Of a stretch of DNA of 34,583 nucleotides, positions 17,399 to 19,712 are shown one piece after another. Location of the stretch: contig JACDFO010000003.1 of NCBI GenBank assembly GCA_013815785.1, positions 1 through 34,583 of the forward strand. Direction: 5' to 3'. This stretch comes from Candidatus Saccharimonadota bacterium (GTDB taxonomy: Bacteria > Patescibacteriota > Saccharimonadia > Saccharimonadales > JACDFO01). The first letter of the stretch is position 1, and each line of letters starts with the position of its first letter. The notes beneath the pieces were generated by a model. That model was not told where the DNA came from. It worked only from the letters and a program-made list of their open reading frames with translations, and searched no databases. The translations under genes were made by a program, and so were the position numbers.

Positions 17399-18046
17399 AT
17401 GGCACTATTTCAGAAGAATCCTTATGACTCAACAGAAAAACTACCTCTATACACTCTTGGACTTACTAAAAGCGTTTTAGTAGTGGGTCTTGGCAATAAA
17501 GGTAAGAACTACGAGGGAACACGTCATAATATCGGCTTTGAGTGTATCGACGCTTTTGCAAAAGCCACGGAATTACCCGAATGGATAGAGAAGAAATACC
17601 TTAAATGCCTCCATACAAGCGGCACAGTGGGCAATACACGCGTCATTGCCATTAAGCCTTCTACTTTTATGAATCTAAGCGGCGAGGCGGTACAGGCTGT
17701 TGCAAACTTTTATAAAATACCTCCGAGTCAAATTATAGTTGTACATGATGAGTTGGATATACCTTTTGGACAGATTCGCACCCGGGTTGGCGGAAGCGAT
17801 GCTGGCAATAACGGCATTAAGTCTATTATCCAGCATATGGGCGAGTCTGCTGGCCAGCAGATTGGCAGGGTCCGTATCGGCATTAAAGCCGCAACTCCAA
17901 TGGAAAGCTCGGATTTCGTACTAGGCAAGTTTGCTGCTAAGGAACAAAAGCAGCTGCCGCACCTCATCAAAGAGGCAACTGCTATCTTGACCGAATACGT
18001 CTATAGCGCCCAACTACCTCACGAAACCCGCAAATTTATCGTCTAA
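17399..18046 (+). CDS. pth: Peptidyl-tRNA hydrolase
   Basis: VVGLGNKGKNYEGTRHNIGFECID, KPSTFMNLSGEAVQAVANFYKI, VVHDELDIPFGQIRTRVGGSDAGNNGIKSI. Confidence 0.97.
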   Translation: MALFQKNPYDSTEKLPLYTLGLTKSVLVVGLGNKGKNYEGTRHNIGFECIDAFAKATELPEWIEKKYLKCLHTSGTVGNTRVIAIKPSTFMNLSGEAVQAVANFYKIPPSQIIVVHDELDIPFGQIRTRVGGSDAGNNGIKSIIQHMGESAGQQIGRVRIGIKAATPMESSDFVLGKFAAKEQKQLPHLIKEATAILTEYVYSAQLPHETRKFIV

Positions 18047-18351
18047 CTATCACGCTCGCCGAGCTCTTGGACTACTTCATCGAACATGGTCACAATAGCT
18101 GTGCGGGTTGCTAATTCACGGCCGATTGCTCTGGCAATATTGCTTCGAATTTGAGCACCCGCTAGATCAGTAATTATCCGGCCGGCAGTTATGTTGTCCT
18201 CGGTCTGTATGCTCGCCAGCCGATCAAGCTCTGTATCTGCCGCCAAACGTTCTTGGTGCAAATCGAACTCATTCATGTCGATTGGGCTGTCGTAACCACT
18301 CCGTCGCTGCTCATGAACAGTTAGGTAGGCTTTGTCTCCGAATATTTCCAT
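18043..18351 (-). CDS. Hypothetical protein (102 aa)
   Basis: Convergent 4-nt overlap with pth; extended -10 TGATATAAT 7 nt before the ATG. Confidence 0.65.
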   Translation of the reverse strand: MEIFGDKAYLTVHEQRRSGYDSPIDMNEFDLHQERLAADTELDRLASIQTEDNITAGRIITDLAGAQIRSNIARAIGRELATRTAIVTMFDEVVQELGERDS

Positions 18352-18364: not shown

Positions 18365-18417
18365 TCATATTTTTTTGCAAAAAAATACCGATGGCCGGGA
18401 ACCGCTTCACCAATAAA

Positions 18418-18467
18418 CAAAAAGGACCTCTGGAGGGGGTGGGCACCGCCAGAGATCCTTTTTGGGC
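18418..18467. terminator. Bidirectional intrinsic-terminator-like hairpin
   Basis: CAAAAAGGACCTCTGG ... CCAGAGATCCTTTTTG, one mismatch in 16; inner GGGTG/GCACC. A T-run follows on both strands. Confidence 0.6.
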
Positions 18468-18590
18468 TCGAACGAATCAAGCCCGAATTACACCCTTCAA
18501 CCCACCCAGCGAAACATCGGACATCAAAATCAATCAAATGCCGTGTCAGCCATAAAGACTATCTTTGGGACTCGCTTTGAAATTACCAGA

Positions 18591-18596
18591 TATAAT
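18591..18596 (+). promoter_or_regulatory. -10 TATAAT upstream of the structured RNA candidate
   Basis: ccagaTATAATcataaag, about 40 nt before the outer helix at 18631. Confidence 0.45.
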
Positions 18597-18602
18597 CATA
18601 AA

Positions 18603-18816
18603 GATCATAGCGGGGGCAGTGGTTAAAGGGGTTAGTTTGTTTTAGAACGATGTAATCTCAAGGATTACTACAGCTAAACTAAGTGGAGGGTAACGACTTG
18701 GTTGCAGCACGCTCTAAAACAATCTAACAGTGTTCCCGTTAAAACGGGTGTTAGAATAGGGGTATAAGGTACAGTAAGGCGCTTGCGCGCATTACGAATT
18801 GCTATTTTAGCAAATT
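18603..18816 (+). ncRNA. Candidate structured RNA / riboswitch-like leader upstream of dprA
   Basis: GTTAGTTTGTTTTAGA (18631-18646)/TCTAAAACAATCTAAC (18713-18728), one mismatch, encloses GTAATC-tcaag-GATTAC and AACTAAGT/ACTTGGTT. A competing hairpin TCTAACA...CCCGT/ACGGG...TGTTAGA reuses the 3' strand. Two further hairpins follow. Confidence 0.6.
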
Positions 18817-18851
18817 AATGTCCTTATGTCAATACTTAAATACATTTATAT

Positions 18852-19712
18852 ATGACTGTCAAGAAACTTACGCTTAAAAATACTGCCATTCCTGAAACTC
18901 TTAGAAACATTCCTAATCCCCCCAAGGAACTATATATCTTGGGCGATTTAACACCTTTGCTCGACCGTCCCAGGGTAGCGATAGTGGGAAGCCGGAAGGT
19001 TACGCCCTACGGCCGTCAAGTTACCCAGCAGTTGGCTAGAGAGCTCGCTCTAGCGGGTGTAGTAATTATTAGCGGCTTGGCGTTAGGAATAGATGCGATA
19101 GCTCATCAGGCAGCCCTGGAAGTTGGAGGGAAATGCATAGCGATATTACCTACGAGCTTAGAAGAAATATATCCGTCTAGCCATCGACAGTTAGCAGAGC
19201 AAATTCTTCGAACAGGCGGGGCACTAATCAGCGAATATCCAGAGGGAATGCCAAGTCTAAAAAAGAACTTTATCGAACGTAATCGCTTAGTTTCCGGACT
19301 TTCTGACGGCGTACTCATACCCGAAGCTGCCATCAAAAGCGGTACATTACACACCGCAAACTTTGCTTTGGACCAAGGAAGAACTGTGATGGCGGTCCCC
19401 GGGAACATCACATCACCCACCAGCCAAGGCACGAACAGCTTACTTAAGACTGGTGCCATATTGGTTACGGAAACCACCGATATCCTAACCGCACTGCACT
19501 TAACACCAAAAGATATGCAGCGGCAGCTACCACTAGCCGCTAATAAGGCAGAGCAGGCCATTTTAGATCTGCTTGCATCGGGAGTCAGTGACGGATCCGT
19601 TTTACTAGCAGACAGTGGTCTAGGTCCTAGCGAATTCAATCAAACGCTAACTATGTTAGAAATAACTGGGAAAATTAAACCACTCGGTATGGGTCATTGG
19701 TCTTTGATGTAA
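18852..19712 (+). CDS. dprA: DNA processing protein DprA
   Basis: VAIVGSRKVTPYGRQ, VIISGLALGIDAIAHQAAL, ISEYPEGMPSLKKNFIERNRLVSGLSDGVLIPEAAIKSGTLHTANFALDQGR, VPGNITSPTSQGTNSLLKTGA. Confidence 0.96.
   Translation: MTVKKLTLKNTAIPETLRNIPNPPKELYILGDLTPLLDRPRVAIVGSRKVTPYGRQVTQQLARELALAGVVIISGLALGIDAIAHQAALEVGGKCIAILPTSLEEIYPSSHRQLAEQILRTGGALISEYPEGMPSLKKNFIERNRLVSGLSDGVLIPEAAIKSGTLHTANFALDQGRTVMAVPGNITSPTSQGTNSLLKTGAILVTETTDILTALHLTPKDMQRQLPLAANKAEQAILDLLASGVSDGSVLLADSGLGPSEFNQTLTMLEITGKIKPLGMGHWSLM

Follow-up and report, generated by a model that had tools for sequence, protein, structure and literature searches.

A large structured RNA, very probably a stand-alone non-coding RNA, encoded divergently from dprA in the order Saccharimonadales

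The stretch upstream of dprA in the 34.6-kb window (the whole stretch of DNA that was analysed) is very probably the gene for a stand-alone structured non-coding RNA on the minus strand; this degree of confidence concerns the identity of the RNA and not its mode of action. The predicted promoter, the terminator and the G-U pairs all agree on the minus strand, and comparative evidence shows a putative single-copy RNA gene equipped with its own extended -10 promoter of the sigma-70 type and its own intrinsic terminator. Since the promoter is located at one end and the U-run terminator at the other, the RNA would extend from approximately 18797 to 18414. Folding of the 18603-18816 stretch was better than that of all 200 shuffled versions (z = -4.9). 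A stable non-coding RNA was one of the options considered in the original prediction for this locus, and it is now supported by the minus-strand promoter, the terminator and the covariation. The features of the locus are the following:

18852..19712, plus strand: dprA, the divergent neighbour, given as context and lying outside the RNA
18804..18832, minus strand: promoter of the RNA, TTGACA-N17-TGCTAAAAT
18414..18797, minus strand: the non-coding RNA, approximately 384 nt, with ends inferred from promoter and terminator
18774..18795, minus strand: 5' hairpin of variable sequence, from the MFE fold
18756..18773, minus strand: conserved 5' C-rich strand beginning with GUACCUUAUACCCC, from conservation among relatives
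18723..18755, minus strand: a:b hairpin UCUAAC...GUUAGA, whose b-box GUUAG competes for the c-box
18637..18722, minus strand: long helix, 18722-18710 with 18649-18637, from compensatory changes
18673..18708, minus strand: apical hairpin whose loop at 18692-18685 is the conserved UACCCUCC
18652..18668, minus strand: variable hairpin GUAAUC-CUUGA-GAUUAC, from the predicted fold
18622..18630, minus strand: 5' strand of the helix PX, CCCUUUAAC, position 9 showing each of the four Watson-Crick pairs
18501..18507, minus strand: G-box GGGUGGG, with complementarity to the loop of the terminator
18493..18501, minus strand: 3' strand of PX, GUUGAAGGG, from covariation with the 5' strand
18464..18484, minus strand: optional hairpin ahead of the terminator, from the predicted fold and missing in many relatives
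18419..18463, minus strand: intrinsic terminator hairpin and U-run, with the loop GCCCACCC at 18444-18437

The relatives were gathered through dprA and through the covariance model R1, the latter built from 12 of them, and the RNA length in 140 relatives ranged from 237 to 568 nt with a median of 356 nt. The promoter consists of a -35 box TTGACA (18832-18827), a 17-nt spacer with TGC at its end and a -10 box TAAAAT (18809-18804). It was present on the RNA strand in all 112 main relatives, as defined by the pattern TTGAC[ATG]-N16/17-TANNNT with TG ahead of the -10 box, the spacer being 17 nt long in 106 and TGC preceding the -10 box in 97 of them, at a median distance of 33 nt ahead of the conserved core; 29 of the 30 divergent relatives had it as well. 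At the other end, the terminator hairpin was followed by a U-run in 133/140 relatives, and its loop GCCCACCC was invariant (96 of the 97 relatives where the full G-box was recognised). The promoter/terminator scan of the plus strand detected neither a sigma-70-like promoter between 18362 and dprA nor a terminator; the TATAAT noted originally at 18591 is indeed there, but did not appear in the scan output. The two additional hairpins that had been seen ahead of dprA correspond to the 5' hairpin of the RNA and to a palindrome around its -10 box.

Two helices carry the comparative evidence for the structure. The long-range helix PX (CCCUUUAAC/GUURAAGGG) closes a variable domain, its strands being 53 to 183 nt apart in the relatives with a recognised G-box. 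Compensatory changes occurred at pairs 1, 2, 4, 5 and 7, the ninth pair was found as C-G, G-C, A-U and U-A, and the exchanges included AAG:CUU, AAU:AUU, AAA:UUU, GCC:GGC, CUC:GAG and GAC:GUC. The non-Watson-Crick cells of PX comprised 105 G-U and no A-C, with a small bias towards pairing because the partner strand was chosen by best complementarity; on the other strand the same cells would be A-C mismatches, which argues for the minus strand as the RNA. In the RNA of the window, the thermodynamic fold recovered PX unaided with a probability of 0.96. The long helix was paired in 95.7% of cells over 101 relatives and contained 210 double-change cells vs 46 after shuffling, a signal which was lost on sliding. 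The motif of the apical loop was found in 137/140 RNAs and was 90% unpaired in the predicted folds. In two of the loci (L217 and L218) an insertion of approximately 150-200 nt separates the long helix from PX.

In 129/140 relatives, against an expectation of 10.3, the stretch from PX to the terminator contained the sequence GGUGGG. In 17 of them it was located away from PX, as the loop of a hairpin GUGA[GGUGGG]UCAC, and this relocation favours a real contact with the terminator loop. We infer that the G-box GGGUGGG and the terminator loop may form a pseudoknot or a kissing contact; since the loop GCCCACCC never varies, the pairing shows no compensatory changes and is thus proposed rather than proven.

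The b-box GUUAG can either pair upstream in the a:b hairpin or lengthen the long helix by pairing with the c-box CUAAC at 18635-18631 (b:c). The helix of the original prediction, 18631-18646 (GTTAGTTTGTTTTAGA) with 18713-18728 (TCTAAAACAATCTAAC), was placed correctly, including its single mismatch, and the overlapping hairpin at 18723-18755 was confirmed; because the strand 18723-18728 is common to both, they exclude each other. Both states were populated on folding in the window and were near isoenergetic (0.65 vs 0.34), and equilibrium folds of partial transcripts indicated that the a:b hairpin would appear first in the growing transcript, with PX formation tipping the balance towards this hairpin. 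The mean probabilities of the two states over 111 relatives were 0.48 and 0.46, both being at least 0.1 in 55. The existence of mutually exclusive helices therefore stands, but the evidence falls short of conserved switching: the competing pairing was possible in 92% of cases vs 63% with shuffled upstream sequence, and in 78% vs 62% in the divergent relatives, an only modest excess over the shuffles. The b:c extension covaried in distant relatives (GUUGC/GCAAC, GUUAC/GUAAY and, in locus L012, AAUAGUC/GACUAUU), but the a:b hairpin had zero double changes in the main group. A conserved GUUAG switch as a firm claim was weakened by the shuffle control and also by family f8 (L207, L208 and L218), whose hairpin and long helix draw on mostly separate bases. 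Thus, the GUUAG exchange is a real potential of the predicted fold, and a conserved switch is not established.

Within the class, the R1 model matched 215 of 396 genomes, representing 117 of 153 genera, and nearly every matched genome had one copy. A looser search gave a match at E ≤ 1 in 34 of the 36 weak or missed genomes, and the apparent absence from genera g6 and g16 was mainly due to the strict filter. A phylum-wide sample gave 25 R1 matches, every one of them in the order Saccharimonadales; outside the order, two genomes (G032 and G044, the latter apparently identical with L012) had a divergent form, found by the PX pattern with zero control matches. The gene dprA was divergent from the RNA in all 105 loci where it was detectable, and pth was convergent and downstream of the RNA in 81 of the 85 loci where it was seen. 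In L222, L228 and L230, topA in the same orientation adjoins the RNA terminator in place of pth, indicating a rearranged locus in which the RNA was kept. Directly past the terminator in the window there is an ORF of 102 aa (18043-18351, minus strand) with its own TATAAT and without a homologue in the fetched loci.

The proposed fold would consist of the 5' hairpin, the exchangeable GUUAG hairpin and the long helix capped by the ACCCUCC loop, followed in the 3' part by PX closing the variable domain and by the terminator hairpin with its loop GCCCACCC. The conserved C-rich sequences were mostly unpaired in the predicted folds (ACCCUCC 90% and GCCCACCC 83%, vs 35% for the whole RNA), so that conserved C-rich motifs in unpaired loops, the mark of the sX13/RNAIII type of RNAs, were found here as well. 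The C-rich loops of sX13 from Xanthomonas (PMC3771888) and of RNAIII from Staphylococcus aureus (PMC2837412) pair with G-rich mRNA sites, and because of this likeness antisense action in trans was adopted as the working mechanism, with a less than even chance of being correct. The exposed C-rich loops would pair with G-rich sites in mRNAs, the candidate targets being GGAGGGU and GGGUGGGC near start codons, and the loops would be masked and unmasked either by the G-box of the RNA itself or by the exchange of the 5-bp GUUAG pairing.

Only 8 of the 26 genes in the window had a weak-or-better Shine-Dalgarno-like site, and apart from the RNA gene the window contained GGAGGGT 0 times and GGGTGGG once. 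Upstream of several genes (15972, 18351(-), 4781(-) and 33669(-)) a TATAAT-like -10 box was located approximately 8-15 nt ahead of the ATG, which suggests that several window genes have leaderless mRNAs. With few Shine-Dalgarno-like sites and several apparently leaderless genes, antisense targets may be few, and therefore a scaffold of a ribonucleoprotein or a catalytic housekeeping RNA, whose C-rich loops would bind protein or rRNA in some core job, is tentatively considered nearly as likely. Such a role would fit with the single copy, the near-universal presence in the order, the conserved synteny and the invariant loops carried on arms of variable length, as well as with the likeness of ACC(C)UCC to the anti-Shine-Dalgarno tail of 16S rRNA. 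It has no known protein partner to its credit, however, and the RNA replaces neither RNase P RNA nor tmRNA: the models RF00010 and RF00023 had no match at the locus, and the true copies were found elsewhere, on contigs C11 (244 bits) and C30, respectively. A 6S-like RNA, binding RNA polymerase as a mimic of an open promoter and also raised in the original prediction, is improbable: a long helix is present and the genome is without a match to RF00013, leaving its 6S analogue unaccounted for, but the locus itself had no match to this model even at E up to 5, and what is conserved is a set of C-rich loops plus a long-range helix, and not the long, rod-shaped fold with its central bubble. Also improbable is a cis-acting minus-strand leader, in which the GUUAG exchange and the contact between G-box and terminator loop would set the read-through into a downstream gene. 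The near-isoenergetic states, the complementarity of the G-box to the terminator loop and the co-oriented 102-aa ORF of the window would suit it, but with pth usually convergent there is mostly no co-oriented target, and the ORF had no detected homologue in the loci. Finally, a riboswitch or switching leader for dprA on the plus strand, the other option of the original prediction, can practically be dismissed on the sequence evidence. Either strand would allow the alternative helices, and dprA does lie to the right, but the promoter, the terminator and the G-U pairs face the opposite way, the scan found no plus-strand promoter between 18362 and dprA, the RNA is kept where topA lies downstream, and an RNA which is transcribed divergently from its own promoter and stops at its own terminator would not control dprA in cis as a leader.

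Saccharibacteria live on other bacteria, and their genomes are very small. Whether acting as an antisense RNA, as preferred here, or otherwise, an RNA of 240-570 nt that is kept as one copy throughout the order, shows strong compensatory evolution and lacks an Rfam entry is likely to matter to them. It was apparently missed so far because genome annotation relies on Rfam. The RNA is new at the level of an RNA family, and this claim does not extend to the mode of action; that it represents a new class, a large lineage-universal RNA serving the epibiotic Saccharibacteria in some core function of their own, with a conserved switch by 5-bp strand exchange and with its terminator hairpin folding back into the mature RNA, is possible but less likely than not. 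Cultured and transformable Saccharibacteria exist (PMC10633639), which makes the role of the RNA directly testable.

The covariance-model scan of the locus against Rfam 15 (4227 families) gave no family at its gathering score, and the microRNA matches mir-365, MIR4378 and mir-927 were hairpin look-alikes far below theirs. No description of this RNA was found in the open literature, the search covering neither subscription papers nor preprints. The SRP RNA models RF00169 and RF01854 had no match at the locus, and an SRP-like domain IV motif occurred in 1/140 RNAs; the same two models found no SRP RNA in the whole draft genome (G000, 96% complete), where it is probably either missing or diverged. 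RNase P RNA, which is diverged in CPR (PMC8172020), is a large structured RNA of similar length in the same kind of organism, but the genome encodes its own copy elsewhere. The 6S RNA is likewise a single-copy stand-alone RNA with long helices, the present RNA being longer and conserved in other parts. The Xanthomonas sX13, a stand-alone RNA with several C-rich apical loops, is much smaller, and the Saccharimonadales RNA has no sequence match to any Rfam family. RNAIII of S. aureus, approximately 0.5 kb long, shows no homology by the Rfam scan, and the Saccharimonadales RNA differs from it by having no visible coding part and by a host whose genes rarely possess a strong Shine-Dalgarno site; what both have in common is a large structured RNA with conserved C-rich hairpin loops exposed.
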